Shown: positions 8,572 to 31,344 of the stretch, one piece after another
How the letters are laid out: each line of letters begins with the position of its first letter
Position numbering within the stretch: the stretch's first letter is position 1
Source of the DNA: Limosilactobacillus fermentum
GTDB lineage: Bacteria; Bacillota; Bacilli; Lactobacillales; Lactobacillaceae
Assembly: GCF_013394085.1 (NCBI RefSeq)
Contig: NZ_CP040910.1
Location: 722,366-767,408 of the forward strand
Length of the DNA stretch: 45,043 nucleotides
Direction: 5' to 3'
The notes under the pieces: generated by a model
The model's input: only the letters and a program-made list of their open reading frames with translations
The model's database searches: none
Told to the model about the DNA's origin: nothing
Made by a program: the position numbers and the translations under genes

Positions 8572-8688
8572 AACGTGGTCAATAACCGCAGGCCTAGTGT
8601 CTAAGCAGGCCGAAGAACGGTGCGTACCGCACCAACCGTTCGTCCTAGCTTAGTCATACGGCCTGCCGAGTAGGTTATTTCCCACCCA
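8572..8688 (-). repeat. Structured intergenic repeat, copy 1 (behind the 48-aa gene)
   Basis: A member of the dispersed palindromic family described in the findings. Core hairpin GGTGCG-TAC-CGCACC, outer pairing GCAGGCC/GGCCTGC, and the CTAAG/CTTAG stem. The GTGGG-type end sits at the stop codon of the minus-strand gene at 8692. One member of a family of about nine full copies in this window. Confidence 0.85.
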
Positions 8689-8691
8689 CTT

Positions 8692-8838
8692 TTACTTGGC
8701 GGAATCTTCTTTTTTAGCGGCGTCTTCTTTGGCGTCCTTTGGTTGGTCGTCCGGTTTTTTAACCGGCTTGAGCGGGTCGCTAGCGAACTTATTGAATAAG
8801 TCGTCCAGCTTATCGCTGCGGCGAGTGACAAGTCCCAT
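8692..8838 (-). CDS. Small highly charged protein (48 aa), unknown
   Basis: A short gene on the minus strand with a strong ribosome site (AAGGAGG, seven bases before ATG at 8838). The product is MGLVTRRSDKLDDLFNKFAS followed by a Pro/Lys/Asp-rich tail ending KKEDSAK. It has no membrane segment or cysteine. The Shine-Dalgarno, the absence of stops and a structured repeat placed directly behind its stop codon (as behind other genes here) support it as real. The function is unknown; it resembles a disordered accessory protein. Confidence 0.65.
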   Translation of the reverse strand: MGLVTRRSDKLDDLFNKFASDPLKPVKKPDDQPKDAKEDAAKKEDSAK

Positions 8839-8856
8839 TAGGCATCCTCCTTTGTG

Positions 8857-8882
8857 GTGCTAAATTAGGGCTATTTTAGCAC
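8857..8882. promoter_or_regulatory. Inverted repeat in the divergent intergenic region
   Basis: GTGCTAAA (8857-8864) and TTTAGCAC (8875-8882) form a perfect 8-bp dyad upstream of the 48-aa gene. It is a candidate operator or leader hairpin. Confidence 0.45.
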
Positions 8883-8896
8883 AGATGCCGGATGAA

Positions 8897-8922
8897 AAAA
8901 AGCAAAGCGGCGCCGCTTTGTT
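8897..8922 (-). promoter_or_regulatory. GC-rich palindrome followed by a T run on the minus strand
   Basis: CAAAGCGGC/GCCGCTTTG is an 18-bp perfect palindrome. On the minus strand it is followed by C and seven T, giving it terminator form, yet it lies upstream of the small gene. It could be an attenuator or a barrier between the divergent transcripts. Confidence 0.45.
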
Positions 8923-8963
8923 ATGCATAAATCGGGAAAAATGGGGATTTATATGCGATTTAC

Positions 8964-8992
8964 TTGCATAATAATTCGTTAGTTAGTATAAT
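8964..8992 (+). promoter_or_regulatory. Promoter of the amino-acid ABC ATPase gene
   Basis: TTGCAT (8964-8969), 17 bp, TATAAT (8987-8992). A strong consensus match. Confidence 0.8.
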
Positions 8993-9025
8993 GGTTTCAT
9001 TATCAACAGAGACGAGGGAGCAACG

Positions 9026-9772
9026 ATGGAAGATAAAACAATGATTGAAATTAAGGACCTCAAGAAGTCCTTCGGTAAAAACATCATCTTAGACGGGGTT
9101 AACGAAGAGGTCAAAAAGGGCCAGGTGATCTGCGTGATTGGGCCGTCCGGGGCCGGGAAGAGTACCTTCTTACGGTGTTTGAACCTGCTAGAAGAACCGA
9201 GTGCGGGCGCCGTGTTATTTGAGGGGCAAAACCTGGTTGAGATGGGGGCCAAGGAAGTTCAAACCGTCCGCGAAAAGATGGGGATGGTTTTCCAAGGCTT
9301 CAACCTCTTTCCTAACATGACCGTGTTAGACAACGTAACCCTCGCCCCAATTAAGGTTAAGGGGATGGACAAGGAACAAGCACAAAAGCTGGGACACCAA
9401 CTGTTAAGCGAAGTGGACATGGACGATAAGGCTGATGCCTACCCACTGTCCTTATCCGGGGGGCAAAAGCAGCGGGTGGCCATCGCCCGGGCGCTGGCGA
9501 TGAACCCGGAAGTGATGCTCTTCGATGAACCAACCAGCGCCCTGGACCCGGAAATGGTGGGGGAAGTGCTCAAAGTAATGCAAGAGCTAGCTAACAATGG
9601 GATGACGATGGTCGTGGTGACCCACGAAATGGGCTTCGCCAAGAACGTGGCCGATGAAATCTGGTTCATGGCCGACGGGAACATCCAAGAGGTGGCCAGC
9701 CCCCAAGAATTCTTTACCAACCCCAAGACTGAGCGGGCCCAGGACTTCTTGGAAAAGATATTGAATGCGTAA
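9026..9772 (+). CDS. Polar amino-acid ABC transporter, ATP-binding protein (GlnQ type)
   Basis: A 248-residue ABC ATPase of the polar amino-acid uptake family. Walker [11 protein letters not shown]-loop [13 protein letters not shown], signature [14 protein letters not shown], Walker [15 protein letters not shown], and the H-switch [10 protein letters not shown] are all intact. Start ATG 9026 follows GAGGGAG; ATG 9041 is a possible alternative. It is an orphan: no permease or binding-protein gene lies next to it, so its partners must be elsewhere. Glutamine or another polar amino acid is the likely substrate by family only. Confidence 0.9.
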
Positions 9773-9778
9773 TTAAAG

Positions 9779-9896
9779 GAAGTGCGGGCCAACCATTAAG
9801 CAGGCCGTGGGCTAAGGAAAGGTCGGGGGTTGATGCGGCACGCATCGTTCTCCGGCCAGACTTAGCCACTAAGCTAGGACAGGGGTAAATTGCACG
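9779..9896 (+). repeat. Structured intergenic repeat, copy 2 (behind the ABC ATPase)
   Basis: Begins with GGAAGTGCG seven bases after the stop codon. Core hairpin GATGCG-GCA-CGCATC. The distal arm (AAGCTAGGACAGGGG) is degenerate compared with other copies. Confidence 0.8.
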
Positions 9897-9908
9897 TTGC
9901 TTTAAATT

Positions 9909-9955
9909 AACATCCGGTCGCTTCGCAAAGTACTTGCGAAGGACCGGATGTTTAT
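9909..9955 (+). terminator. Strong hairpin terminator
   Basis: AACATCCGGTC and CTTCGCAA pair with TTGCGAAG and GACCGGATGTT, giving about 19 bp with one interruption, followed by TTATTT. Confidence 0.82.
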
Positions 9956-10049
9956 TTGCAGGGAGCGGTAGCACGGCCTTTTCTTTGCCCCCGCCCCCAA
10001 AAAGCCGTAAAATAGATTTATCAAACACCTGTTTAAAGGGGGAACGAGA

Positions 10050-14212: not shown

Positions 14213-15052
14213 ATGTTAATGATTAAGCGACTGAAGCAACTGCGTTTTTTGCGTAACAAGGTGGTTTTGATCACCGGGGGTTCGGAGGGGATCGGCAAGG
14301 CGCTGGCCCTAGAAGCCGCCCGGCGCGGGGCCGTCGTGGTGGTGGCCGCCCGCAACCAAGAAAAGCTTCAAGAGGTAGCGGACCGCTGCCTGATCTTAGC
14401 GGGGCGCCCGTCCTTTGCCTTTAAAATGGATGTGACCGATCCCGACCAGGTGGATGAGGTCCTTGACCAGATTCGCCACCAGGTCGGGGAAATTGACGTC
14501 TTGATCAATGCCGCCGGCCTCGGGATGATGGACGCCGTGGTTGACCAAAGCTACGCGACCATGCACAAGATGGTGACGGTCAACTTCTTGGCCGCCATGT
14601 ACCTGAGCCGGTGCGTGGCCAAACAGATGATGAATCAAGGGTACGGCGCCATTATTAACGTCGCTTCGTTGGGCGGCAAGATCCCGACCCCTAACTCGGC
14701 GGTTTACTCGGCCACCAAGGCGGGGGTGATCCAGTTCTCCAACATCTTGCGGATGGAAGTTGCTGACTACGGGGTCCAGGTCCTAACCGTTAATCCGGGA
14801 CCGGTCGCCACCGACTTCTTCAAGAAGGCCGACCCGAGCGGGGAATACATGGCCCACCTACCGCAGTGGTTTGTTATCGCACCGGACGCCTTAGCCCGCC
14901 AGGTCTGGGACAACGTGGGTTACGAAACCCGCGAAATTAACGTACCGGGCTACACGACTGGGCTCGCCTGGGCCTACCAGATCATCCCGGGCCTCGGAGA
15001 CTGGGCGATCAAGAAGTTCTTCAACTTCCAACAAAATAAGCATAACCTCTAA
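14213..15052 (+). CDS. Short-chain dehydrogenase/reductase (YqjQ/DltE-like)
   Basis: A 279-residue classical SDR with an N-terminal basic segment. The cofactor loop is TGGSEGIGKA (about 22-31), NAAG is present (NAAGLG), and the catalytic Ser-Tyr-Lys set is seen in INVASLGG and YSATK. The C-terminal 30 residues are hydrophobic/aromatic (GLAWAYQIIPGLGDWAIKKF), which suggests membrane association. ATG 14213 follows GAGGGTGAAGGA, 20 bp after rnz. The substrate is unknown; the rnz-SDR-recJ-apt order is typical of the group. Confidence 0.88.
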   Translation: MLMIKRLKQLRFLRNKVVLITGGSEGIGKALALEAARRGAVVVVAARNQEKLQEVADRCLILAGRPSFAFKMDVTDPDQVDEVLDQIRHQVGEIDVLINAAGLGMMDAVVDQSYATMHKMVTVNFLAAMYLSRCVAKQMMNQGYGAIINVASLGGKIPTPNSAVYSATKAGVIQFSNILRMEVADYGVQVLTVNPGPVATDFFKKADPSGEYMAHLPQWFVIAPDALARQVWDNVGYETREINVPGYTTGLAWAYQIIPGLGDWAIKKFFNFQQNKHNL

Positions 15053-15059
15053 AGTAAAT

Positions 15060-15095
15060 GACTCCAGCAGTTCGTAACCGGGTGCTGGGGTCTTA
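15060..15095 (+). terminator. Terminator between the SDR gene and recJ
   Basis: GACTCCAGCA (15060-15069) pairs with TGCTGGGGTC (15083-15092), then TTAATA. The T run is weak, so readthrough into recJ is possible. Confidence 0.6.
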
Positions 15096-15124
15096 ATACT
15101 GTTAAGACTTAGAAAGGAACGGGC

Positions 15125-17422
15125 ATGATTGACAGCAAGTACGCCTGGCAAGGGCAAGCAAACGGCGATAAAGAAACGATCCAGGTGGTGGCCGATGCGA
15201 CGGGGCTACCGGCGGAGTTAGCGGCCCTTTTAGTCAACCAGGGGATTAAAAGCGCTGACGCCGCCCAACGGTGGCTCAACCCGCAAGCAGAAGACCTCCA
15301 CACCCCCGACGCGTTGCACGACGTCGACCGGGCCGTTGAGCGGATCATGGCGGCGGTCGAAGCGGGCGAAAAGATCACGGTCTACGGCGATTACGACGCC
15401 GACGGGATCACCGCCACTACTTTGATGTACGAGGCACTGGAAACGCTGGGGGCGCAAGTTGATTATTACGTGCCCGATCGTTTCACTGATGGTTACGGGC
15501 CCAATCAAGCGGTCTACCAGCGGCTGATTGAGGGGGGCACCCAGCTAATCGTCACCGTTGACAACGGGGTGGCCGGTCTGGCGGCGATTGAGTATGCCAA
15601 GGAGCAGGGGGTTGACGTGGTCATTACCGACCACCACGCCCTGCCCGAACAACTCCCGCCGGCCGTGGCGATTGTCCACCCCCAGTACCCGGGTAGCGAG
15701 TATCCCTTTGCCGATCTGTCCGGGGTCGGGGTCGCCTTTGAAGTGGCCTGGGCCCTGCTGGGTGAGTTCCCGGTGGAAATGCTGGACCTGGTGGCGATCG
15801 GGGAGTTGGCCGACCTGGTTTCCCTGGCCGGTGAAAATCACGCCCTAGTGGCACTGGGGTTGCAGCAGCTCCGCCAGGGGAGCCGGCCGGGCTTGCACGC
15901 CCTGCTGAAGTTAGCCGGGGTCAAGGAGGCGACCCTGACCGGGACCGACGTGGGCTTCCAACTAGCGCCGCGCTTAAACGCCCTCGGCCGGATTGAACAG
16001 GCCGGCCCGGGGGTGGTCCTCTTGTCCACCTTTGACGAAGAGGAGGCCGAACGGTTAGCTAAAGAAGTCGATCAAACCAACGAGGAGCGTAAGCAACTGG
16101 TGGAGCAGATCACTAAAGAAGCCCTCGCAATGGCGGCTAACCAACAGGTGCCCGCCCTGGTCTTGGTGGGCCACGGCTGGCACCAGGGGGTGTTAGGGAT
16201 CGTGGCGGCCCACGTGGTTCAAGCAACCGGTAAGCCAACCATCGTCGCTTCCGCCAACGAGGGTGAGACGATCGCGAAGGGCTCCGGCCGCTCGGTGGAG
16301 GGCCTCGATTTGTTCGCCGCCCTGGATCAGCACCGCGACTTGATGACGGCCTTCGGGGGTCACGCAATGGCCTGCGGGATGTCCTTTGAATTAACTGCGG
16401 CGGCGCCCCTACAAGCGGCCTTAAACGAAGAGGTCACGGCGCAGGGCTTTAACCAGCAGCAAAAACCGCCGTTAAAAATTACCCTGACCTTGGCACCAGA
16501 CCGGCTCACCCAGGACCTGTACACGCAAATCCAGCGGTTGGCACCCTTTGGCCCGGGCAACGAGGAGCCCCAAATCGAACTCGACGTCAAGGGACCGGTG
16601 GCGACCCAGGTGATGGGCAAGGACAAGTCCCACCTTAAACTAAAGGTCGGTCAACCGCCGTTAGACGTGGTCGCCTTTGGCAAGGCTAGCCTAGCACCGG
16701 CCCTGGCCGAGGCGGAAGAAGTCAAACTGGTCGGCACCCTCAGCTTAAACGAGTGGCGGGGCAAGACCAGCTGCCAGCTGATGCTAACCGACGTGGCGGC
16801 CACCGGAGTCACCGTGCTCGACCAACGGACGGCCCGGCTGTTGCCGCCGATGTTTGAACCGGCTGCGGTTTACCTGGCCTTCGATGAGCGGCTGCGCAAT
16901 AACATTAATGGCCACGCTAACGGGCCGGTGGTCGGCCCTAAGGACCTCACCGCCGACCTGGTAGCCAACCAGGAACTGGTAGTGGTTGATTGCCCGCCGA
17001 TCATTAGCCAGCTGACCACAAGCTTGGCTAAGTGCGCGGCGGCTAGTTCGATCCGACTCCTGTGCTACTTCAACCAGGCCCCCCTGACCGGGATGCCAGC
17101 CTACCAGGCCTTTGCCAAACTGTACCGCCTGCTAGGCCAAAACCCCAACATAAACATCAACCAGCAGGTCAACCCAATTAGTAACTACCTGCGCTTGCCA
17201 GCGGATCAGTTAATTTTCATGATAAATGTGTTTTTTGAGGCTGGATTTGTTACAATGAAAGATGGTGTTTTAAATCTCGTCCCGCAGGCTCAGCGGCGGG
17301 ACCTTAAAGAAACAACGAGTTATCGTCGCCGCCAGGCGCAATTAGAAGTTGAACGGGCCCTGGTCCATTCGTCTCACCCCGATCTAGTGGCGTGGGTCAA
17401 GCGGCTGGTTGGCGCGCGCTAA
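15125..17422 (+). CDS. recJ: Single-stranded-DNA-specific exonuclease RecJ
   Basis: The 5'-3' ssDNA exonuclease of recombination and mismatch repair. At 765 residues it is the long Firmicutes form. DHH-family motifs: [15 protein letters not shown] (about 79-93), [16 protein letters not shown]. The DHHA1 domain has [16 protein letters not shown] and [11 protein letters not shown]. An OB-fold domain and a C-terminal extension of about 200 residues follow. Start ATG 15125 has AGAAAGG upstream. Apt begins 14 bp after its stop with its own ribosome site, so they are likely co-transcribed. Confidence 0.96.
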
Positions 17423-17435
17423 AGGAGAAATTTTT

Positions 17436-17963
17436 ATGGCTATTAATCTTTACGATTACGTCGCTAGCATTCCGGATTACCCCGAAAAAGGGATCGTTTT
17501 CCGCGACATCTTGCCGCTGATGGCAAACGGGGAGGCCTTCAAGCAGGCCACCGATGAAATTGCCAACTACGCTCGCGACAAGCACGTTGACATGGTGGTC
17601 GGTCCAGAGGCCCGGGGCTTCATTGTTGGTTGCCCGGTTGCTTACGAACTCGGGGTCGGCTTTGCCCCGGCCCGTAAGAAGGGGAAACTGCCCCGGCCGG
17701 CAGTCTCTTCGACTTACGACCTGGAATACGGGTCGGCAACCCTGCAAATGGAAAATGATTCCATCAAGCCGGGCCAACGGGTGCTAGTCGTTGATGACCT
17801 CTTGGCTACCGGGGGCACGATTTCGGCCACCATCGACATGGTTGAACAAATGGGCGGGATCGTGGTCGGTTGTGCCTTCTTGATCGACTTAAAGGACCTA
17901 AACGGCCGCGAAAAGCTGAAGGGTTATGACGTTAAGACCCTGATGGAATTCGAGGGAGAATAG
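17436..17963 (+). CDS. apt: Adenine phosphoribosyltransferase
   Basis: Converts adenine and PRPP to AMP in purine salvage. Starting at ATG 17436 (AAAGGAG upstream) gives 175 residues, close to the family's 170-175; longer in-frame readings run back into recJ. Motifs: [14 protein letters not shown] at the N-terminus, the hood residues GPEARGF, and the PRPP loop [13 protein letters not shown]. The recJ-apt order is widespread in Firmicutes. Confidence 0.96.
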
Positions 17964-17965
17964 TT

Positions 17966-18081
17966 GAGTGCGATCCAGCCATCAGGCAGACCGTGGGCTA
18001 AGGATAGGACGGGGGTTGATGCGGTACGCATCGTTCTCCGGCCAGACTTAGCCACTAGGTCTGCGGCTGGGAGCACGTTAT
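17966..18081 (+). repeat. Structured intergenic repeat, copy 3 (behind apt)
   Basis: GAGTGCGATCC begins within 5 bases of the apt stop. Core GATGCG-GTA-CGCATC; outer CAGACC/GGTCTG, a compensatory variant of CAGGCC/GGCCTG elsewhere. A further fragment (GTTGCGACCCAACC) follows near 18093. Confidence 0.85.
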
Positions 18082-18140
18082 CAGTGCTGCCGTTGCGACC
18101 CAACCATTGGCTAGGCACGCATCCCATGTAAAACTTAACC

Positions 18141-20251: not shown

Positions 20252-21061
20252 ATGACTGAACTAAACCAACGCCAAGCAGAATTTGCCCAGGCTCTCTACC
20301 AAAGTTACGTGACCAACGTTGCCCTCAACGAAGACGATTGGCAGGGCGTGGTCCAAGACTTTGAGACCGCCTACGCCGTCCAGGAACGGGTGATGACACT
20401 CAAGGGTCAACCGACCGCCGGCTATAAAGTTTCTCTGACCAGCGAAGAGACCCAGAAGATGTTTGACACCGATGCCCCCCTCTTTGGTCAACAGGTCGCC
20501 GAGCGTTTCTTAAAAGGCCCGGCTGGGGTCAACCTCGACCACCTCAATGAACCACTGGTCGAAGTCGAACTCGCCTTCCGGGCCAAGGAAACCCTCCAGC
20601 CGACTGATTCACTAGAGGACCTTTTGCATAAGACCACCGTAGCGGGTGCCGTTGAAGTGCCCGACGCCCGCTTCGTTGACTGGTTCCCGAGCCTGGGTAA
20701 GTACAACGTCTTGTCAGACTGCGCCGTGGGGGGATTAGTGGTTTATGGCGAGGAGCGTGACAGCGACCAGGCCTTTTCCTCGGTTGAAGACGCCGCCACC
20801 GTTCACGTCGACCTCTACCAAAACGGGCAACAGGTCGGCGAAGGGGACTCCAGCGAAGTGTTGGGGAACCCGCTCAAGTCCTTGCAGTGGTTGGTTAAGA
20901 AGCTTGATGAACAAGGCAAGCAGTTCGCCCGCGGGCAGGTGGTATCTTCCGGGACCTTCCTCTTGCCGCCACACTTGACGGCCGGGCGCTGGGAGGCCCG
21001 CTTCAACCACGACTTCGGCAACGTTTTGGTCTTGGCACGGCCGACGCTGGCGGAATTTTAG
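20252..21061 (+). CDS. 2-keto-4-pentenoate hydratase-like protein (HpcG/MhpD, FAH-like fold)
   Basis: A 269-residue protein similar to 2-oxo-hydratases and decarboxylases of aromatic meta-cleavage pathways. YKVSLTS, PLVEVELAFR (the metal-binding E-x-E) and the C-terminal SSGTFLLPPHLTAGRWEARF are conserved. Start ATG 20252 follows AAAGGAGG. No other meta-cleavage genes are nearby, and the gene is controlled by a T-box, so a role in amino-acid-linked 2-oxoacid metabolism is more likely than aromatic degradation (inference). It is monocistronic, followed by two structured repeats and a terminator. Confidence 0.8.
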   Translation: MTELNQRQAEFAQALYQSYVTNVALNEDDWQGVVQDFETAYAVQERVMTLKGQPTAGYKVSLTSEETQKMFDTDAPLFGQQVAERFLKGPAGVNLDHLNEPLVEVELAFRAKETLQPTDSLEDLLHKTTVAGAVEVPDARFVDWFPSLGKYNVLSDCAVGGLVVYGEERDSDQAFSSVEDAATVHVDLYQNGQQVGEGDSSEVLGNPLKSLQWLVKKLDEQGKQFARGQVVSSGTFLLPPHLTAGRWEARFNHDFGNVLVLARPTLAEF

Positions 21062-21184
21062 AAAGTGAGTGCGACCCAACCTCCTCGACGGGCCGTTGGA
21101 CTAAGCTAGGACGGGGGTTGGTGCGGAACGCACCGTTCTCCGGCCGTACTTAGGCACTAGGCCCGTGGTTGGGAGCACGATATT
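21062..21184 (+). repeat. Structured intergenic repeat, copy 4
   Basis: GAAAGTGAGTGCGACCCAACC begins directly at the stop codon of the hydratase gene. Core GGTGCG-GAA-CGCACC; outer ACGGGCC/GGCCCGT. Confidence 0.85.
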
Positions 21185-21298
21185 GGTGAGTGCGACCCAG
21201 CCAATCAAGTAGGCCGTGGGCTAAGGACAAGACACGGGTTAGCGCGTCAGCGGTGTTCTGTGGCTGGACTTAGCCACTAGGCCGACAGTGTAACCATA
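21185..21298 (+). repeat. Structured intergenic repeat, copy 5 (tandem to copy 4)
   Basis: GGTGAGTGCGACCCAGCC start, GGGCTAAG/CTTAGCC stem, and a different core (AGCGCGTCAGCG). Its inner stem belongs to the GAACAC/GTGTTC type also seen in copy 7. Confidence 0.8.
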
Positions 21299-21302
21299 AG
21301 AG

Positions 21303-21332
21303 AGACCGTTCTTAAGGGGCGGTCTTTTTTTG
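21303..21332 (+). terminator. Terminator after the tandem repeats
   Basis: AGACCG(T)TC pairs with GGG-CGGTCT, followed by seven T. Confidence 0.85.
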
Positions 21333-21354
21333 AGTAAATTTCTGGCGGAAACCC

Positions 21355-21385
21355 TTGACTTGGAGTTAACTCAAAGTAGTAAATT
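21355..21385 (+). promoter_or_regulatory. MerR-type promoter/operator with 19-bp spacer
   Basis: TTGACT (21355-21360), a 19-bp spacer, TAAATT (21380-21385). The dyad CTTGGAGTTAACTCAAAG (21359-21376) fills the spacer. Over-long spacers with a dyad are the hallmark of promoters untwisted by MerR-family activators. Confidence 0.85.
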
Positions 21386-21408
21386 AAGGTCATCAGGAGG
21401 AAAATGAC

Positions 21409-21831
21409 ATGGCGAATTTAACGATTACCCAGGTGGCCAGCAAGTACGGCCTGACGCCGGACACCTTGCGCTACTACGAAAAAATTGACCTACTACCGCC
21501 GATCCCCCGGACGCCAGGGGGGCGCCGCTATTATCCCCAGGGGGTCCAAGACTGGATCGAGATGATCGTTTGCCTGCGCCACTCGGGGGTGCCGGTCGAC
21601 GTTTTGCAAACTTACGCTAAGCTACTAGAGCAGGGCGATGCGACGTTAACCAAACGCCGGGAGCTGTTGGCTGACCAACTCGAAGTTTTGTTAAACAAGC
21701 GCCACAACCTGGACCGCTCAATCAATCGTTTGGAGCACAAGATCGCTTTGTACGATAGCGGTGAGATTCGGGCCAGGAAGAGTTACTTTGAAGAATACCA
21801 AATTTTAGATGACCAAAAGGAGACACTTTAA
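21409..21831 (+). CDS. MerR family transcriptional regulator
   Basis: A 140-residue protein with the winged-helix MerR domain (ITQVASKYGLTPDTLRYYEK, GGRRYYPQGVQDWIEMI), followed by a long dimerisation coiled coil (about 85-125). No cysteine pair typical of metal sensors is seen; it looks like the aldehyde/quinone-stress or orphan class. It heads an operon with a flavodoxin-fold reductase, a YciI protein and an ABM monooxygenase, and probably activates its own promoter (dyad 21359-21376). AGGAGG precedes the ATG. Confidence 0.92.
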   Translation: MANLTITQVASKYGLTPDTLRYYEKIDLLPPIPRTPGGRRYYPQGVQDWIEMIVCLRHSGVPVDVLQTYAKLLEQGDATLTKRRELLADQLEVLLNKRHNLDRSINRLEHKIALYDSGEIRARKSYFEEYQILDDQKETL

Positions 21832-21833
21832 TT

Positions 21834-22370
21834 ATGAAAACAACCGTCTTTTTATTCCACCCCAACTTCGCCAACTCCCGCGTCAACAAGGCCTTAGCCG
21901 CCGGTTTACCGGGCGACATCGAGGTCCGCAACATGTACGCTTTGTACCCGGACTTTCAAATTGACGTCGCCAAGGAACAAGCCGTGATGGAGGAAAGCGA
22001 CCGGATCGTCTTGCAAACGCCGATGTACTGGTACTCCGGGACGCCGCTGTTAAAGAAGTGGGAAGACGACGTGCTGACTTACGGCTGGGCCTACGGGAGC
22101 GACGGTAACGCCCTGCACGGCAAGGAACTACTGGTGGCGATCACGCCGGGGGCCGACAACTACGGCGCCGGAAAGTTCGTCCCGTACACGGTTTACGAAT
22201 TGTTACGGCCGTTCCAAGCGATGAGCAACCTGATCGGGACTAAGTTTGTTACCCCGTTTGTGACGACCGGCGCTAGCTCGATCAGCGACGAGGACTTGGC
22301 CAAGCGGGTAAAAGAGTACGCCGACTACCTGAGCCAAGACGAGTTAAAGGTGCTCGGCGCCTTTGAATAG
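21834..22370 (+). CDS. NAD(P)H quinone oxidoreductase, flavodoxin-like fold (KefF/MdaB family)
   Basis: A 178-residue flavoprotein. The TTVFLFHPNFANSRVNKAL phosphate-binding start, QTPMYWYSGTPLLKKWEDDV (FMN/FAD site) and ITPGADNYGAG are typical of modulators of drug activity and KefF-type reductases that reduce quinones by two electrons. It starts 2 bp after the MerR stop, with AAAAGGAGACAC upstream, so the two are tightly coupled. It probably detoxifies quinones or reactive carbonyls when induced by the MerR regulator. Confidence 0.85.
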   Translation: MKTTVFLFHPNFANSRVNKALAAGLPGDIEVRNMYALYPDFQIDVAKEQAVMEESDRIVLQTPMYWYSGTPLLKKWEDDVLTYGWAYGSDGNALHGKELLVAITPGADNYGAGKFVPYTVYELLRPFQAMSNLIGTKFVTPFVTTGASSISDEDLAKRVKEYADYLSQDELKVLGAFE

Positions 22371-22380
22371 GGGGATTGAA

Positions 22381-22662
22381 ATGTATTTAATTGACATTCG
22401 TTTGAAGGGTGATCAGGTCACGGAAGACCAACTGACCGCCCACCGCCAGTGGTTTAGCCGCCACTTTGAAGCGGGCGACTTTTTGATCGTCGGTCCGTCC
22501 AAGAGTCGTGCCCAGTCCGGGTTGATTTTGGCCCGGCAGATGGCCCGCAAAGACCTGGACCAAATCATTACCGAGGATGCCTTTTACCCGGCCGGGGCGG
22601 ATTACTTAGTCAACGAATTTGAAGCCAAGCTGGTAGCCGACCAGATTAAGGGGGATGCGTAA
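22381..22662 (+). CDS. YciI family protein
   Basis: A 93-residue ferredoxin-like-fold protein (MYLIDIRLKG, HRQWFSRHFEAGDFLIVGPS, EDAFYPAGADYLVNEF). YciI-like domains have a His/Asp pair and bind small ligands, and some act as dehalogenases or lactonases. ATG 22381 with GGGGG upstream is preferred over TTG 22363, which would overlap the reductase gene. Its stop overlaps the next start (TAATG). Confidence 0.8.
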   Translation: MYLIDIRLKGDQVTEDQLTAHRQWFSRHFEAGDFLIVGPSKSRAQSGLILARQMARKDLDQIITEDAFYPAGADYLVNEFEAKLVADQIKGDA

Positions 22663-22991
22663 TGGCACTAACAGTCAACCTTTATTACACGGGGAAAAAC
22701 GGCAGCGCCCAGCAATTTGCTAAGGAAATGATCGACCAGGGGGTGGTGGCCGCCATTAAGGCCGAGCCGGGCAACCTTAAGTACGATTATTTCATTCCCT
22801 ACGACGACCCGGAGACCCTGCTGTTGATCGATAGCTGGGCCGACCAAGCCTCCCTGGATGCCCACCATGCTTCGCCAATGATGAAGCAGTTGGCCGAGTT
22901 GCGGGAGAAGTACGATTTGCACATGCGTGTTGAACGTTACGTCAGCGATGACCGCGGCGATGACGTCGACGAACAGTTTATTCGAAAGTAA
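22662..22991 (+). CDS. Antibiotic biosynthesis monooxygenase (ABM) domain protein
   Basis: A 109-residue dimeric alpha/beta-barrel protein. KYDYFIPYDDPETLLLIDSW and HHASPMMKQLAELREKYDL match YgiN-type quinol monooxygenases. Coupled to the YciI gene by TAATG, it closes the MerR operon. Together with the quinone reductase it suggests a quinone/quinol redox-cycling or detoxification set. Confidence 0.85.
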   Translation: MALTVNLYYTGKNGSAQQFAKEMIDQGVVAAIKAEPGNLKYDYFIPYDDPETLLLIDSWADQASLDAHHASPMMKQLAELREKYDLHMRVERYVSDDRGDDVDEQFIRK

Positions 22992-23020
22992 GAGAGTGGC
23001 AACCAACCTGGTCCCAAATT

Positions 23021-23068
23021 AAAATGCGGCCGCTTCGCAAGATTGATCTTGCGAAGCGGCCGCATTTT
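23021..23068. terminator. Perfect 23-bp hairpin, bidirectional terminator
   Basis: Positions 23021-23043 are the exact reverse complement of 23046-23068 with a 2-base turn. The ends are AAAA and TTTT, so it can act in both directions between convergent genes. Confidence 0.88.
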
Positions 23069-23094
23069 GTGTAGGCAAAAGTTGGATTGCACTT

Positions 23095-23215
23095 TCGATA
23101 ACGTGGAAAATGACCACAGACCTAGTGCCTAAGTACGGGCGAAGAACGGTACCAAGGCATCAACCTTCGCCCTATCCTTAGCCCACGGCCTACTGGATAG
23201 GTTGGGTCGCACTTC
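23095..23215 (-). repeat. Structured intergenic repeat, copy 6
   Basis: In minus orientation: GTGCGACCCAACC end near 23210, GGCTAAG stem. The core here (GGTACCAAGGCATCAACC) pairs poorly, a decayed variant. A fragment of another copy end (GTTGGATTGCAC) lies at 23080-23093. Confidence 0.75.
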
Positions 23216-23336
23216 CGATAACGTGCTCCCCAGCCGCAGGCCTAGTGGCTAAGTCTGACCACAGAACACCGCTGATGCGCTAACCTGTGTTCTATCCTTA
23301 GCCCACGGCCTGCTTGATTGGCTGGGTCGCACTTCC
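23216..23336 (-). repeat. Structured intergenic repeat, copy 7 (behind the SemiSWEET gene)
   Basis: Its GGAAGTGCGACCCAGCC end directly follows the stop codon of the minus-strand gene at 23339. The inner stem is AGAACAC/GTGTTCT; outer GCAGGCC/GGCCTGC. Confidence 0.85.
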
Positions 23337-23338
23337 CT

Positions 23339-23629
23339 TTAGAAGTGGAAGCAAGTAATGAAAGTAGCGAAGGAGAAGAAGACCCCTGGGAAGTTAGCCC
23401 AGAAAACGGGCCAGTCACGGTCCTTCTTGAAGTAGGCGTAGATTGACCACAAAGAACAGTTGACCCCGGCCACGAACGGTTGCAGTGGGGCACCATATTG
23501 GCCGTGTAGGTTATTGATGATTTGAGCGATGTAGGAAACGTACATCAGGATGGCGATGACACTGGCGAAGCGGCCAAGCCAGGAGATGAACTTTTCAGAG
23601 TCAAATGAGTGTTCCTTTGGTTGTTGCAT
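23339..23629 (-). CDS. SemiSWEET/PQ-loop family sugar transporter
   Basis: A 96-residue membrane protein with one triple-helix bundle: TM1 (KFISWLGRFASVIAILMYVS), TM2 (AGVNCSLWSIYAYF), TM3 (FWANFPGVFFSFATFITCF). SYIAQIINNLHGQYG occupies the PQ-loop position, with Ala in place of the usual Pro. SemiSWEETs work as dimers that move mono- or disaccharides. The ATG at 23629 has AAAGGA suitably placed; the upstream ATG at 23647 has none. A promoter about 220 bp upstream implies a long leader. Confidence 0.85.
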   Translation of the reverse strand: MQQPKEHSFDSEKFISWLGRFASVIAILMYVSYIAQIINNLHGQYGAPLQPFVAGVNCSLWSIYAYFKKDRDWPVFWANFPGVFFSFATFITCFHF

Positions 23630-23847
23630 AATGAAGATCCTTTCCATAAGTAAATCCTGGATTCAAGTGCTTCCGCCAGCATGATTGTAGATTAATGAAC
23701 AATTGCAGTATGTGAAAGTCAAAAGTAGGATGGCGATTGTGCTTAGAACCACCGCCCAGTTTGGTGGGGTGAACTTTGTGACCTTCGGCAACCAAGCGCA
23801 GGGAATCGCTTGCATCGTGAAGTAGTTACCTTCTTGTTAACGGTTAC

Positions 23848-23876
23848 ATAATAACGCCGGTTATAATAACTGTCAA
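23848..23876 (-). promoter_or_regulatory. SemiSWEET gene promoter
   Basis: On the minus strand TTGACA (23871-23876), 17 bp, TATTAT (23848-23853). Direct repeats GGTTACATA at 23843 and 23879 flank it and could be regulator sites. Confidence 0.8.
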
Positions 23877-24039
23877 CAGGTTACATATAGAAAAAATTAA
23901 AATTTATTACTCATAAAATACAAATTTGACATATATAAACTAATTTAATAGGGGCGTCACCGTTGTTATTTAATATAAACCGGTTTACACAAATTCTTAG
24001 ATAATTGGGACGGACGAAAAAAATTAAGTCGGATTTTCT
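23877..24039. other. AT-rich non-coding stretch
   Basis: Between the SemiSWEET promoter and the next repeat array I see no gene. It is strongly AT-rich and carries an ACCGGTTTACAC motif near 23980. Confidence 0.5.
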
Positions 24040-24080
24040 AGTTTAGCCCACGGTCCGTCGAGGAGGTTGGTACGCACTTC
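24040..24080 (-). repeat. Half copy of the structured repeat
   Basis: Starts TAGTTTAGCCCACGG and runs through GTTGG to GCACTTCC. Only one arm is present, with almost the same left boundary as the half copy at 31302. Confidence 0.75.
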
Positions 24081-24200
24081 CAATAACGTGCTCCCCAACC
24101 ACGTGCCTAGTGCCTAAGTACGAGCGGAGAATGACGTCAGGGCGTCAACCCCCGCTCTAGCTTGGTCATACGGCCCGTCGAGGAGGGTGGGTCGCACTTC
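24081..24200 (-). repeat. Structured intergenic repeat, copy 8
   Basis: Core TGACG-TCAGG-GCGTCA, a third sequence version of the core hairpin that still pairs. The flanks are the family's ATAACGTGCTCC and GCACTTCC. Confidence 0.82.
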
Positions 24201-24320
24201 CAATAACGTGCTCCCCAACCGCAGGCCTAGTGGCTAAGTCTGGCCGAAGAACGGTGCGTGCCGCACCAACCGTTCGCCCTATCCTTAGCCCACGGCCTGC
24301 CAATGGTTGGTACGCACTTC
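24201..24320 (-). repeat. Structured intergenic repeat, copy 9 (behind the XRE gene)
   Basis: The best-formed copy: GCAGGCC/GGCCTGC, GGCTAAG/CTTAGCC, CGAACGG/CCGTTC and GGTGCG-TGC-CGCACC stems nested in order. Confidence 0.88.
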
Positions 24321-24326
24321 CAAAAC

Positions 24327-24356
24327 AAAAAAGACCAGGAGCAAGCTCCTAGTCTT
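24327..24356 (-). terminator. XRE gene terminator overlapping its stop codon
   Basis: On the minus strand AGACTAGGAGC pairs with GCTCCTGGTCT, followed by six T. The TAG stop lies inside the first arm. Confidence 0.88.
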
Positions 24357-24660
24357 CCATCAGCCGGTAAATAATATTCCGGTCGTTCTTCGAGAGGGGA
24401 CGCCCCCGGTAGGTTAAATTGACGTTTTCATCGGCCAGGTCGACCGTCACTGGTTGCCGAATTGACCGTTCATGGTCTAAAAGGTAATCAGTTGATACCT
24501 CAAACAATTCTGCTAGTTTCGTGACATATGTACTGGAGGGTTCTGTCCGGTTCGTTTCCCACGCTGTGACCGTGGTTTGCGAAACGCCAATGTATTTACC
24601 AAGCATCGCCTGGGACAGGTTCCGCCCCTTTCGAAGATGTTTGATTCTAGCACCGATCAT
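24349..24660 (-). CDS. XRE family (Cro/CI-type) DNA-binding regulator
   Basis: A 103-residue protein. The HTH_3 domain spans 1-62 (IKHLRKGRNLSQAMLGKYIG, VSQTTVTAWETNRTEPS, LAELFEVSTDYLL), and a short C-terminal region ends in RPLSKNDRNIIYRLMED. The start at 24660 has GGGG at a usable distance, while an in-frame ATG 36 bases upstream has no ribosome site. No partner gene is adjacent; it probably controls itself through the dyad at 24691-24710. Confidence 0.88.
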   Translation of the reverse strand: MIGARIKHLRKGRNLSQAMLGKYIGVSQTTVTAWETNRTEPSSTYVTKLAELFEVSTDYLLDHERSIRQPVTVDLADENVNLTYRGRPLSKNDRNIIYRLMED

Positions 24661-26197: not shown

Positions 26198-26377
26198 ATG
26201 AAAAATTTTGAGAATGCTAGTAGCAATAAGTCCAACCGTGGTTTCTCGCTGAACGATTTTGAAGAACTCCCAAAAGAAGTTGAGCAGGCGATGAAACTGG
26301 TAAAAGCGGAGGAGTTGGGTCTAGTAAAGGACCAGAGTGAGCTAGGGGCTGGCCTTGAAGCGTTACGTCAGCGGTGA
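26198..26377 (+). CDS. Possible small protein (59 aa), unknown
   Basis: Open frame starting MKNFENASSNKSNRGFSLND and ending GLEALRQR. It is acidic with a helical C-terminal half and no membrane segment. No convincing ribosome site precedes ATG 26198 (or GTG 26192), and I do not recognise it. It may be a gene remnant; the surrounding 500 bp has no other coding signal. Confidence 0.3.
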   Translation: MKNFENASSNKSNRGFSLNDFEELPKEVEQAMKLVKAEELGLVKDQSELGAGLEALRQR

Positions 26378-26445
26378 TCGTGAGGAAAGCATACAGGACA
26401 AATCTAAAATTGGGCGCAAAGATTAGTGTTTTGAAAGTTTACACA

Positions 26446-26565
26446 GATAACGTGCTCCCCAACCACAGGCCTAGTGGCTAAGCAGGTCTGAGAACAGTGC
26501 GTGTCGCACTACCCCCCGGCCAAGCTTAGCCCAACGGCCTGTCGAGGAGGTTGGTTCGCACTTCC
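26446..26565 (-). repeat. Structured intergenic repeat, copy 10
   Basis: ATAACGTGCTCCCCAACC to GCACTTCC. Core AGTGCG-TGT-CGCACT, yet another self-pairing version. Unlike the others it does not follow a recognisable gene in its own orientation. Confidence 0.82.
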
Positions 26566-26661
26566 ATTTTGCGCAAATCTAAATATTTGTCCGGTGGGGG
26601 TGGCAGGTTAAGAGAAGGGCGATCCCCTGTTTAATTATTAATCAGATTAACTTATGGATCA

Positions 26662-28160: not shown

Positions 28161-28165
28161 ACGAC

Positions 28166-28483: not shown

Positions 28484-28518
28484 ATATAAATAGAACTTAT
28501 TAATTTGGAGAGATTGAT

Positions 28519-28884
28519 ATGACCACAGAACAATCGATTGCCGTTGATTACTTTATTGAGTTAATGGAAAAGCACCGCGTTCGGGCGTTGGTGATTCAAA
28601 AGGGGGAGCACATTTATGGGGTCGTTAAAGCCAAGCACGAAGCCCTGGAAGTACCCTTCAACGCCGACCGCTTAAGCTGGGTAAGCGAACGAAACGCCAC
28701 CGACGTCGGAAAGGCGATTCGCGTGGACGTTTTGACCTGCCTAAAGGAACTCCTGGTCGCCAAGGCCAACCGGGATTACAAGTACTTCTCTCGCCTCGCC
28801 CAACAGCTACAAGATGACCTCGACCAATTCTTTGGCTTCTCCAAGTTGGGCGATGAAGAGGTGCTGTGGAAGGGAAATCACTAA
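28519..28884 (+). CDS. Tandem paralogue A (121 aa), unknown function
   Basis: A soluble alpha/beta protein: N-terminal helix (TTEQSIAVDYFIELMEKH), a beta-hairpin (ALVIQKGEHIYGVVKA, VPFNADRLSWV), then a helical half (RVDVLTCLKELLVA, YFSRLAQQLQDDLDQFFGF) ending DEEVLWKGNH. Clearly homologous to the gene at 29155 over its whole length. No signal peptide or catalytic motif. GGAGAG precedes the ATG. I do not recognise the family. The conserved motif 112 bp upstream suggests both copies answer to the same signal. Confidence 0.75.
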   Translation: MTTEQSIAVDYFIELMEKHRVRALVIQKGEHIYGVVKAKHEALEVPFNADRLSWVSERNATDVGKAIRVDVLTCLKELLVAKANRDYKYFSRLAQQLQDDLDQFFGFSKLGDEEVLWKGNH

Positions 28885-29027
28885 AATTAATTTTTATAAC
28901 TAATGTGAAACGGCGGGCTTTAGATTATCAAATGATGAGAATCGCGGCTGGGAAGTTCCTCGTCTGGGAGTGCGATCGTGACGCCAAAGAAGTTGTTTAA
29001 GTTGATAAAACCGAATTGTTGACTACT

Positions 29028-29042
29028 CCTTATCAGCGTTAA
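29028..29042 (+). promoter_or_regulatory. Shared upstream motif, second copy
   Basis: CCTTATCAGCGTTAA, identical to 28393-28407 and at the same distance (113 bp) from the start of the second paralogue. Confidence 0.6.
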
Positions 29043-29154
29043 GTGAATGAGAAATCAATTAGGGTGATGACGAAATTAATAGGGGTTGTAGTTAACAATT
29101 ATAGTTATTGATCAGAAAATATAATCATGACTTTTTATTATTGGGAGAGAAGTT

Positions 29155-29523
29155 ATGACAAACGAACAAAAAATTGTTATCGAATACTTCATTGCATTAG
29201 TTCAAAAGTATGAACTGGCAGGCAGCGTTGTTCAGCGTGGCCGCCACCCGTACGGGATCATCAAGTCCGAAAATGATCAGGTGGAAATGCAGTTTAATGC
29301 CGAACGGCTTCGTTGGGTTGTCAATTCTTCGATTGAAGATTCGGTTCAGTCCATTAAGGTGGATGTCGTCAACAACTTGCGGTCGGCGTTGTTGGCCGCG
29401 CAATCCGTTGACCAGCTGTACTTCGACCGTTTGGCCCAGCGCCTGCAAGGAGAGCTAGACCGCTTCTTCAGTTTCATGGACCTCGGTAAAGAAGAGGTTT
29501 TGTGGGACGGAACCAATTCATAA
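29155..29523 (+). CDS. Tandem paralogue B (122 aa), unknown function
   Basis: A homologue of the gene at 28519: TNEQKIVIEYFIALVQKYEL, YGIIKSENDQVEMQFNAERL, IKVDVVNNLRSALLAAQ, LYFDRLAQRLQGELDRFFSF, EEVLWDGTNS. Conserved positions include the NA-[DE]-RL-x-WV segment and the terminal EEVLW. A TATAAT element at 29120-29125 and GGGAGAG before the ATG support expression. The two copies have diverged well past recent duplication, which suggests selection for both. Confidence 0.75.
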   Translation: MTNEQKIVIEYFIALVQKYELAGSVVQRGRHPYGIIKSENDQVEMQFNAERLRWVVNSSIEDSVQSIKVDVVNNLRSALLAAQSVDQLYFDRLAQRLQGELDRFFSFMDLGKEEVLWDGTNS

Positions 29524-29529
29524 TAAAAA

Positions 29530-29565
29530 GGGCGTTGCTTCCGGTTAACGGAGCAGCGCCCTGAT
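29530..29565 (+). terminator. Hairpin after paralogue B
   Basis: GGGCGTTGCTTCCG (29530-29543) pairs with CGGAGCAGCGCCC (29549-29561). The T run is poor. Confidence 0.65.
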
Positions 29566-29587
29566 TGTAATGTTTAAAAATGGCACA

Positions 29588-29627
29588 AAAAAAACGCCTT
29601 AGCTCTGACCAGCTAGCGGTTATTTTT
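29588..29627. terminator. Bidirectional terminator
   Basis: CGCCTTAGC pairs with GCTAGCGG, with A and T runs on either side. Nearly the same hairpin recurs at 31088-31123. Confidence 0.78.
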
Positions 29628-29649
29628 TAAGGGTCAATCAATTCATTTC

Positions 29650-30847
29650 CTAGCCCCGCATAGCCTCGCGGTCCGTCATCCGGACCAGGGTTAGCAAGAC
29701 TAGTAGGGCGACCGCACAGTAGACCAGGGAGTTCCAGCCGAGGTCGGGGAGGCCGGCCACCTTGAGGGTTTGGGTGGCGGTAAAGGAGCTTACCGCGACC
29801 CCAACGTTGTAGAAGATGGCGTTTAACGTGGACGCCAGCGTGGTGGCCTGGGGGTAATCGTGGCTGGCGACGTCTAAGACAAAGATCTGAATCGGGGAGC
29901 CAAACAGGGCAAAGAAAAAGACGAGTGCGCACAGCAGCAACAGCCCAGTCCAGGCGTTTTGCATGCTGAATTGGAAGAGCGCTAATAGCACCAGGTCAAG
30001 AACGTAGAAGGGGCGCAGCCGTTTTATCCCATTTTTGGCGGCGAGGCGTCCCGATAATTGGTTGGCAAAAACGTCCAACACCCCTAGTAACAAGAGGACC
30101 AGCGACAGGGCAGTGAGCGAAAAGCCGAGGGTTTGGTGTATCAACGAGCGGATGTAGGTGTAGTAACCAAAGATCATCCCGGCCGAGCAAATGGCAAAGA
30201 CGATCGCTAGTTGGATCCGGCGGTCGGAGAAGAGTACCAACTGCTCTTTAAAGAAAGCTGGTTCGTTGACCAGGTCTTTGGGGATCAAGTTGGTGGCCAC
30301 TACGGTCGCCAACACCGTTATAATGGCGACCATAATGAAGGCGTCTTGCCAGCGCCAGAGGTTGGCGATGAAGGTCCCCAGGGGATTGCCGACCACCGAA
30401 GCGATGCTAAAGCCGGTGTAGATCCAGGCGACCAGCATGGACCGTTGCTGATCGGTGGTGGCGAGTTGGTAGGCGATCACCGACATCAAGGACTCCATCA
30501 AGCCCGCTACCGAGGTGGTCATCACCCGCGAAAATAAGAAGATCGGTAGGCTGGGGGCAAAGGCGCTCAAGAGGGTGCCGGCTAAAAAGACCGCCAGCAG
30601 GGTCAAGAACAAGGAGCGCTTATTGAAGCGGTTGGTCGACAGCGCCAGGAGCGGGGTCGCAATCGCGTAGGTCCAGGCAAAGACCGAGACGATCGAAGCG
30701 CTTTGGCTCAGGGTCTGGTGGTAGGTGTGGGCAATCAAGGAAAGGTTGCCGACGACCATGAATTCGTTACACCCCCAACATAAAGGAGATCAAGACAAAC
30801 ATCGCCGCTAAGACGTACAAACGGGTGTGGTTAGTTTTGGTGACCAT
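29650..30847 (-). pseudogene. MFS transporter, frameshifted near the N-terminus
   Basis: A twelve-TM major facilitator of the drug/sugar-efflux (DHA1-like) type. The true start is ATG 30847, with GAGG upstream, encoding a basic start and TM1 (YVLAAMFVLISFMLG). That frame stops at 30767-30769. Removing one G of the G5 run (30772-30776 on the + strand) joins it to NEFMVVGNLSLIAHTYH and the remaining 370 residues, a sequence typical of this family. Without that base the protein would have about 398 residues. The internal ATG 30759 lacks a ribosome site. A real mutation, slippage or a sequencing error are all possible. It is the last gene before a bidirectional terminator. Confidence 0.82.
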
Positions 30848-30928
30848 AGTATCCTCAATTCCATTTCGATTTGCCGACAGGCGTTTCTTTCATTGTAACC
30901 GCTACCGAAAAGGTTGGGAAGATGAAAA

Positions 30929-30960
30929 AAGACCCCAGCAGTTCACGTGTGAACTGCTGG
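30929..30960 (-). terminator. Minus-strand hairpin with T run upstream of the MFS gene
   Basis: CCAGCAGTTCAC/GTGAACTGCTGG, a 12-bp stem, followed on the minus strand by GTCTTTTTT. On the + strand the same hairpin lies next to the ribosome site (GGAG) of the toxin-like gene and could limit its translation. Confidence 0.75.
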
Positions 30961-30969
30961 AGCCGATTG

Positions 30970-31092
30970 ATGCAAGTTGGAAGAAAGGACGCCCTCTTGA
31001 TTGAGTTGACCCTCGTTGTTATTTTTGACGATTTTGACATTTGCCTGCTGATGCTGATCGTTGCGCTAATCAAACTTAGCGTAAAAAAATAA
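30970..31092 (+). CDS. Candidate type I toxin, small single-TM (holin-like/Fst-TxpA type) peptide
   Basis: A 40-residue peptide, MQVGRKDALLIELTLVV followed by a hydrophobic segment ending LIVALIKLSVKK. The KDALL start, one membrane helix and the ending LIVALIKL-x-KK resemble the putative holin-like toxins common in lactobacilli. An acidic DDFD in the middle of the helix is unusual. GGAG seven bases before ATG 30970, next to a stable hairpin, fits translational control. A strong minus-strand promoter just downstream would make an RNA ending in the shared terminator at the toxin's 3' end. An upstream in-frame start at 30871 seems unlikely. Confidence 0.6.
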   Translation: MQVGRKDALLIELTLVVIFDDFDICLLMLIVALIKLSVKK

Positions 31093-31192
31093 CCGCCTTA
31101 GCTTGCACCGGCTAGCGGTTATTAAATAACTAAAAGTTGGCCACCGAAATATCGGCTCTACCCAGGGAGGCTTCCGACAGCCTCCCGTTTAT
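31083..31192 (-). ncRNA. Candidate antisense antitoxin RNA
   Basis: Predicted from the promoter at 31199-31226 (minus) and a terminator 31088-31123 whose minus-strand tail (TTTTTTT) lies in the last codons of the toxin-like gene. The RNA would be about 110 nt, with an internal GGGAGGCT/AGCCTCCC hairpin (31165-31186), and would overlap the toxin mRNA at its 3' end. Confidence 0.55.
31088..31123. terminator. Bidirectional terminator shared by the toxin and antisense RNA
   Basis: AATAACCGC (31088-31096) pairs with GCGGTTATT (31115-31123), extended by TAGC/GCTA. The toxin stop codon TAA is in the first arm. Confidence 0.82.
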
Positions 31193-31198
31193 ATCGTT

Positions 31199-31226
31199 AT
31201 TATAGCATGACGACCATGATGGTCAA
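31199..31226 (-). promoter_or_regulatory. Promoter of the candidate antisense RNA
   Basis: On the minus strand TTGACC (31221-31226), 16 bp, TATAAT (31199-31204). The spacer contains the palindrome GACCAT-GATGGTC. There is no minus-strand coding frame behind it before the terminator. Confidence 0.75.
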
Positions 31227-31243
31227 ATAAAAGAACAGTTACA

Positions 31244-31290
31244 AAAGGGCGCCACCAGTTCGCATAAGAATATGGTTGGAGCCCTTTGTT
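31244..31290. terminator. Hairpin between the antisense promoter and asnB
   Basis: AAAGGGC (31244-31250) pairs with GCCCTTT (31281-31287), with an inner ACCA/TGGT stem. Likely insulates the antisense promoter from asnB transcription. Confidence 0.55.
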
Positions 31291-31301
31291 TAATCTTCAA
31301 T

Positions 31302-31343
31302 GTAGTTTAAGCCCACGACCTGCCTTATGGTTGGTCCGCACTC
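31302..31343 (-). repeat. Half copy of the structured repeat (behind asnB)
   Basis: TAGTTTAAGCCCACG through GGTTGGTCCGCACTC, abutting the asnB stop codon (31345-31347). It lacks the other arm, like the half copy at 24040. Confidence 0.78.
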
Positions 31344-31344
31344 A

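Follow-up and report, generated by a model that had tools for sequence, protein, structure and literature searches.

A rod-shaped repeat found past stop codons in Limosilactobacillus fermentum, a candidate 3′ untranslated region RNA element of the Lactobacillaceae

The stretch analysed here, called the window throughout, comprises 45,043 nt of the Limosilactobacillus fermentum genome (assembly GCF_013394085.1, contig NZ_CP040910.1, positions 722,366 to 767,408). It contains 10 copies of a structured element of about 120 nt, with boundaries assigned by a covariance model, and a copy is present at each of the ten places named in the original prediction. On the plus strand, an element with a decayed 3′ arm (9778–9901) lies 5 nt past the stop codon of an open reading frame (ORF; 9026–9772), a full element (17964–18082) immediately follows the stop of ORF 17409–17963 and runs into the 5′ part of a second unit, and a tandem pair (21065–21184 and 21186–21303, the second with a decayed 3′ end) begins 3 nt past the stop of ORF 20252–21061. 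On the minus strand, a full element of the GTGG/CCAC arm subtype (8569–8689) lies 2 nt past the stop of a 48-aa ORF (8692–8838, minus strand), and on its 3′ side are a tail, TGTCTAACATTTGGGAATACAGCAAGAGGCCGGG, and a terminator-like hairpin (about 8500–8568). A minus-strand array starts 2 nt past the stop of ORF 23339–23647 with unit 1 (23217–23336), continues with unit 2 (23097–23216), a mosaic whose 5′ and 3′ arms differ in subtype, and ends in a 5′-end fragment (23080–23096). A second minus-strand array consists of unit 1 (24202–24321), 27 nt from an ORF ending at 24349, unit 2 (24082–24201) and the 5′ part of unit 3 (about 24047–24081). A full single element occupies 26446–26565 on the minus strand. 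Two further 5′ fragments were found, one on the plus strand (22992–23008) immediately past the stop of ORF 22662–22991 and one of 36 nt on the minus strand (31310–31345) at the stop codon of an asnB-like gene (31345–32934, minus strand).

The element is directional and reads 5′ GGAAGTGCGACCCAACC ... GGTTGGGGAGCACGTTATC 3′; by eye, the 120-nt unit runs from GGAAGTG to GTTATC. Its 5′-end motif, RRRAGTGCGACCCAACC, has 12 matches in the window at up to 3 mismatches, against a shuffle mean of 0.69. The common ends that had been proposed are not shared by every copy: 8569 carries the arm pair GTGG..AAATAACC / GGTTATT..CCAC, and 23097 has its arms of different type. Terminal inverted repeats, as in miniature inverted-repeat transposable elements (MITEs), are present (GTGC..CCCAACC versus GGTTGGG..GCAC, with covarying variants). 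On the sense strand most window copies form one long rod, its helices split by small internal loops; 21186 and 23097 depart from this in part of their minimum-energy folds. None of the 4227 families of Rfam 15 matched the element, in agreement with the earlier failure to recognise a named family: at gathering cut-offs the window gives only a T-box and a tRNA, and a permissive search of 21000–24400 returned nothing credible at the elements. Among open-licence papers on Lactobacillus or L. fermentum repeats, repetitive extragenic palindromes (REPs), bacterial interspersed mosaic elements (BIMEs) and MITEs, we found no description of it. Passages of an L. fermentum genome paper mention CRISPR repeats (PMC7191730), and a survey of stem-loop families includes L. 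johnsonii (PMC2267715).

The expectation of many copies per genome was borne out. A blastn-type search of the L. fermentum genome located 61 places, and a covariance model built from the ten window copies (R1) gave at least 150 matches. Rescanning the fetched neighbourhoods with R1 brought the count to at least 157 copies above 45 bits on the sense strand, a lower bound in which 7 copies above 45 bits were added from fetched stretches and one further match of 47.7 bits was excluded. The 157 copies fall into 125 arrays (99 single, 20 double and 6 triple). All 28 neighbouring pairs spaced −1 to 4 nt apart, among the 150 matches listed, are on the same strand, arranged head-to-tail and not alternating. 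The base of the rod occurs in matched variants (GTGC/GCAC, GTGT/GCAC and GTGG/CCAC), and rough typing of the arms of the 157 copies found 140 matched (96 C-G, 14 T-G, 30 G-C), 5 mismatched and 12 untypable. Fragments exist besides full copies, since the 5′ motif has 217 matches genome-wide at up to 3 mismatches, compared with 30 for a reversed control.

Units lie mostly in sense between a stop codon and a terminator, sometimes head-to-tail. Of the 125 arrays, 67 start between −20 and +8 nt from the stop codon of a sense ORF, mostly between −4 and +7, and 9 others start 9–40 nt past one; in the mirrored test, an antisense stop lay 40 nt or less from the 3′ end in a single array of 125. These counts rest on the longest ORFs of at least 60 aa, called without a gene finder, and small genes such as the 48-aa ORF before 8569 are missed. 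Elsewhere in the genus, a sense ORF of 240 nt or longer ends −4 to +19 nt from the element in 16 of 27 cases, and an antisense ORF does so in 1 of the 27 (locus L051 excluded). In L. fermentum DR9, where the deposited annotation could be used, 41 arrays were judged by hand: 24 lie past a sense gene, 5 past none, and 12 could not be judged, 11 for want of an annotated sense gene within 100 nt in an incomplete table and one following another array. Thus 24 of the 29 DR9 arrays with an informative annotated neighbour lie past a sense gene. The distance is −15 to +8 nt for 19 of these 24; for another, the sense gene, 60 nt away, is an IS200 gene inserted ahead of the element. At leuS of DR9, three units begin on the final base of the gene.

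The sequence that follows the last unit was sorted crudely for 124 arrays into a short tail (46), part of another unit (39) and other sequence (39). The tail has the form TGTSTAAYATTCGNGAATACAACAAGAGG. Within 160 nt downstream, 95 of the 124 arrays have a terminator-like hairpin, compared with 24 of 124 control stretches. In the GTGG subtype, many copies have related tails and related terminators (GAGGCTGGGAGAAAAC..GTTTTCTCCCAGCCTC), and by eye comparable tails can be seen after some elements of other species and genera.

Pairing within the rod is maintained, with a strong bias towards the sense strand. In an alignment of 147 distinct rows from the L. fermentum genome (A2), 94.8% of cells are paired versus 87.6% after shuffling, and covariation is 0.316 versus 0.177; 20 of 34 pairs change on both sides, and RNAalifold predicted 21 pairs from these rows, 15 of them with two-sided change. 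An alignment of congeners (A4) has 93.7% of cells paired, 29 of 34 pairs with two-sided change and covariation of 0.572 versus 0.233 shuffled, and the corresponding values for a cross-genus alignment (A5) are 91.7%, 31 of 34, and 0.643 versus 0.250. For each of the three, none of 500 shuffles scored as high, and shifting the partners by 1–3 columns abolished the signal; these are strong tests but not tree-corrected ones, as the shuffles ignore relatedness and all three alignments were fitted to the R1 structure. Another alignment (A3), which contains reverse-strand matches of the palindrome, was left out of the counts. The co-varying stems first noticed by inspection are therefore real.

Because a G-U pair on one strand corresponds to an A-C mismatch on the other, the contrast between the two distinguishes the strands. 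On the sense strand of A4 there are 75 G-U and 4 A-C cells, excluding wobble-majority pairs, and in A2 there are 261 and 67, with three columns supplying 139 of the 261. One G-U pair and one U-G pair are kept in 142 and 144, respectively, of the 147 copies, and a CACTA stretch, unpaired in RNAalifold, is invariant across the ten window copies. The G-U excess, together with the kept wobble pairs, therefore points to selection on one strand. Such a bias suggests RNA, or one strand of single-stranded DNA, and not a double-stranded palindrome or cruciform.

A comparison with DR9 showed how the element changes between strains. The two genomes are close, all 14 upstream protein ends compared being 98.7–100% identical. 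Within 600 kb of DR9, in records that do not contain the window region, 32 of the 125 arrays could be placed by both flanks (flank identity 95.8–100%). Two DR9 records, CP033372.1 (760 kb) and CP033373.1 (252 kb), are labelled plasmids and look like pieces of the chromosome; they carry core genes (ribosomal proteins, RNA polymerase beta and leuS; rpsA and pyk). Twenty-one of the 32 placed arrays have the same length in DR9 within 12 nt, and 11 differ. Seven of the differing rows, at 6 sites, reflect unit number; at 1514864 (coordinates in this paragraph are those of our genome) DR9 retains a short fragment, and the remaining three are other insertions in DR9. Identical tandem neighbours occur, which fits recent local duplication. 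At 1122842 (34100–34330 of DR9 locus L213), the DR9 rod is intact but separated from the stop codon by an inserted IS200/IS605 element. Two loci differ in their arms. At 1704409 (about 14999–15120 of DR9 locus L202) the DR9 right arm is an inverted copy of the left, and at 1647576 (DR9 locus L210) a shorter stretch of one arm is an inverted copy of the other; both changes seem to have arisen by intrastrand template switching, or quasi-palindrome correction.

These two loci raise the possibility that covariation throughout the family is a by-product of template switching and not of selection, which we consider improbable. Correction of this kind would erase loops and wobbles, yet the CACTA stretch is invariant and the two wobble pairs are kept in nearly all copies; it is also strand-neutral, so that the ratio of G-U to A-C cells in A4 is not expected from it. 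Arm correction, though it seems to happen, leaves three features unaccounted for: the conservation of the loops, the persistence of the wobble pairs and the bias towards one strand. Selection on structure and repeated copying of palindromic DNA had been offered as alternatives, and both seem to occur; the arm changes resemble the latter, but the wobble evidence needs the former, acting on one strand.

The element extends well beyond L. fermentum. R1 found matches in 26 of 396 Lactobacillaceae genomes, in 8 of 40 genera, and a broadened model built from 49 diverse copies (R2) found them in 91 of the 396 genomes and 19 of the 40 genera. Across the class, a sample of 398 genomes, its share of Lactobacillaceae only partly established, yielded matches in just two: our own, and another that matched weakly over about 50 positions. 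In these scans of some 400 genomes at most 9 candidates per genome were scored, under stricter filters, and all of these counts are lower bounds. Limosilactobacillus oris and L. kribbianus were identified as carriers in an exact-pattern scan. Its presence in 19 genera marks the element family as old. Carriage by phages was considered and rejected: window positions 21060–21310 had no match in 50,697 phage records, and the sole exact-pattern match in viral contigs, an IMG/VR record (L221 13000–13300), has the same flanks as the window copy at 26446. Since that record holds the 26446 locus, either some of its DNA is host-like or a prophage adjoins the window.

At the asnB-like gene the element accompanies a gene that has moved. 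The window gene has only the 36-nt fragment at its stop codon; in Latilactobacillus sakei, a plasmid asnB whose final coding bases are identical has a full unit and part of a second, starting at that same base. The match touches an annotated asnB in 29 of 36 matching plasmid records. Plasmids from Latilactobacillus sakei, Lactiplantibacillus plantarum and further hosts carry asnB with its 3′ element, as do genomes from other genera (L145 2502–2840; L234, L235 and L236); two genomes of other genera share the plasmid form, and a third has differently ordered units there. The element marks the transfer of asnB. Upstream of the window gene, at 32999–33247 on the minus strand, is a T-box leader (RF00230, 110.6 bits), and expression of the gene is therefore probably tuned by uncharged tRNA.

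Transfer of a gene together with its 3′ element recalls integrons, whose attC sites have the same place and direction relative to the gene and are marked by AAC/GTT triplets. Might the elements be integron-like recombination sites, imperfect palindromes beside stop codons that move genes as cassettes? Place, direction and the asnB distribution fit this idea, which we nevertheless regard as very unlikely. The arms vary freely, including at the AAC/GTT triplets, and where the attC R box would require its triplet several copies carry GACC/GGTC, AGCC/GGCT or AATC/GATT. The adjoining genes, moreover, lie on both strands and not in cassette arrays.

Candidate enzymes for the spread of the element were sought in the L. 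fermentum genome. The Y1_Tnp domain has 15 matches of four lengths; the one protein of each length that was tested was in all four cases an IS200/IS605 transposase (NF033573) below the cut-off for REP-associated tyrosine transposases (RAYTs), and no RAYT was found among the 15 on this basis. Applied to 13 of the transposase loci, R1 gave two matches, one about 1.6 kb away and one insignificant, and at the remaining two loci it gave one copy, beyond the right end of the insertion sequence itself. No copy forms a transposase end at any of the 15 loci, and IS200/IS605 ends were rejected as the source of the element; the RAYT link raised in the original prediction is thus not supported. Spread by a reverse transcriptase of the genome was likewise rejected, there being no match to PF00078.

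Taken together, we favour, with slightly better than even confidence, the reading that these are rod-shaped RNA elements of about 120 nt that form part of mRNA 3′ ends in Lactobacillaceae, a portable, REP-like element of the 3′ untranslated region (3′ UTR). In this model, the rod would fold immediately past the stop codon in the transcript of the upstream gene. Its base would lie within reach of the terminating ribosome, where it could slow release, block 3′-to-5′ exonucleases, or both, and the output and lifetime of the upstream message might be tuned accordingly. The proposal is by analogy to the REPs of Escherichia coli, part of which lie within 15 nt of a stop codon and have been reported to cause ribosome stalling and lower translation (PMC12306157, citing the original study). 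Units may once have spread as a mobile or copied 3′-UTR cassette, and between the two strains compared they change by gain or loss of tandem units and, it seems, by correction of palindrome arms.

The chief alternative is a small mobile element that is selfish, MITE- or REP-like and of no benefit to the host. Such an element would prefer, or survive best in, the short gap between stop codon and terminator, and would need its hairpin in order to be copied as RNA or single-stranded DNA of the sense strand. We regard this as plausible, at clearly less than even probability. Dispersed copies are up to 97.5% identical and have flanks that look unrelated, as such an element would predict, and one-strand G-T pairs would also fit a single-stranded DNA intermediate. 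Yet no clean empty site or new insertion was seen among the 32 loci placed in DR9, and no partner enzyme was found among RAYTs, reverse transcriptases and IS200/IS605 ends, other transposase families lying outside the search. Neutral survival does not account for so few arrays, 1 of 125, lying antisense against a stop, and the structure is kept across 19 genera.

Several observations weigh against the 3′-UTR reading, and some of them favour the selfish one. By our crude gene calls, 36 of 125 arrays have no sense ORF within 300 nt. The direction of the terminators is uninformative, as 91 of 124 arrays also score as terminators on the other strand. Alignments fitted to a model of sense copies may somewhat favour G-U over A-C. 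Truncated units are common, as expected of a parasite. Among 17 R2 loci, a sense gene end adjoins the element in 7 and an antisense one in 3, a weaker bias in a set that is only partly independent (R2 was built in part from three of the loci, and three others lie in genomes that contributed to it). R1 detects no copy in a sister genome, G008, which by asnB (92% of residues) is the nearest of 50 genus genomes, and in the part of G008 that was fetched the element is missing at all 16 best-hit gene ends (76 genes asked for; residue identity 66–98%). With no detectable copy and 16 bare gene ends in G008, the element is dispensable, and this presence and absence between sister species also suits a selfish element. 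The 3′-UTR reading does gain from the counterpart of 1354518 in G008, which has the same terminator stem a few bases after the stop codon and no element; rod and tail in our genome thus fill exactly that gap. An ATTAA on both sides at this one clean empty site is a possible target duplication, although the sequence is AT-rich and ambiguous. Finally, that the element is transcribed with the upstream gene and belongs to its message is something we infer, as is its function.

If the 3′-UTR reading is right, a further step can be entertained, one that we hold to be possible but on balance unlikely: the element could be an RNA module common to the Lactobacillaceae, with a conserved rod and fixed internal loops (CTA/GTA and the CACTAG side, by eye) that docks past stop codons. 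As a portable 3′ UTR with tail and terminator, it might jointly control L. fermentum genes numbering some 80 or more, setting their output through one protein or the terminating ribosome, unit number acting as a dial for the single gene. The element is abundant and structured, occurs in a bacterium of food and probiotic use, and was found neither in Rfam nor in the open-licence literature searched. Acting as RNA, it would constitute a shared layer of 3′-end control for many genes of the family and would allow the idea that a stop-hugging hairpin controls translation, put forward for E. coli REPs, to be tested in a Gram-positive organism. Differences in unit number between strains are natural experiments and might find use in strain typing.

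Two other inverted repeats were noted near the window copies. Parts of one lie beside the single element at 26446: it spans 26375–26610, has arms like GACAGGACAAATNTTTAGATTTGCGCAA ... TTGCGCAAATNTAAATATTTGTCCTGTC and recurs at 111378, 587713, 1518472, 1704178, 1765744 and 1855348 of the L. fermentum genome. Seven element copies lie inside or adjoin it, 16 of its arm motifs were found in 384 kb, and it is possibly another small mobile family. The other, at 22999–23090, is a long inverted repeat around AAAATGCGGCCGCTTCGCAAGAT/ATCTTGCGAAGCGGCCGCATTTT that looks like a two-way terminator.

The sense orientation, the placement at stop codons, the tail and terminator, the spread over the family and the further fragments all go beyond the original prediction, and they bear on how the element compares with known systems. 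It fails defining tests of REP/RAYT and attC systems and may still be a MITE; we place it among the small dispersed structured repeats. Like the REPs and BIMEs of E. coli, it is a high-copy extragenic palindrome, some copies of which are near stop codons, and the closeness to stops of 67 of 125 arrays is a REP-like trait. In contrast, it measures 120 nt where a REP measures 20–40 bp (PMC3733652), and its units are clustered head-to-tail on the same strand where those of BIMEs alternate (PMC2817692). It has neither the GTAG/CGTC tag of REPs nor a cognate RAYT that we found, and is often followed by a tail and terminator; membership of the REP/RAYT family was rejected on these grounds. BOX of Streptococcus pneumoniae is similarly structured and modular, with variable tandem parts and length variation between strains, and is enriched between convergent genes (PMC3049150). 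It is a boxA-boxBn-boxC mosaic, whereas here the whole rod repeats, and the two are set apart by description. The MIRU of Mycobacterium tuberculosis are direct repeats of interspersed type that point the same way as the gene upstream, adjoin stop codons and vary in unit number between strains; to our knowledge they have no long covarying rod with a one-strand wobble bias and no attached terminator. The bcr1 repeat of the Bacillus cereus group is also a dispersed structured repeat, of about 150 bp, with mobile features (PMC2267715). It belongs to a different lineage and, by description, differs from the present element. We know of no stop-codon rule for bcr1. What distinguishes the element described here within the small dispersed structured repeats is that it lies in sense at stop codons, has a tail and terminator attached, and bears the signature of a single strand.

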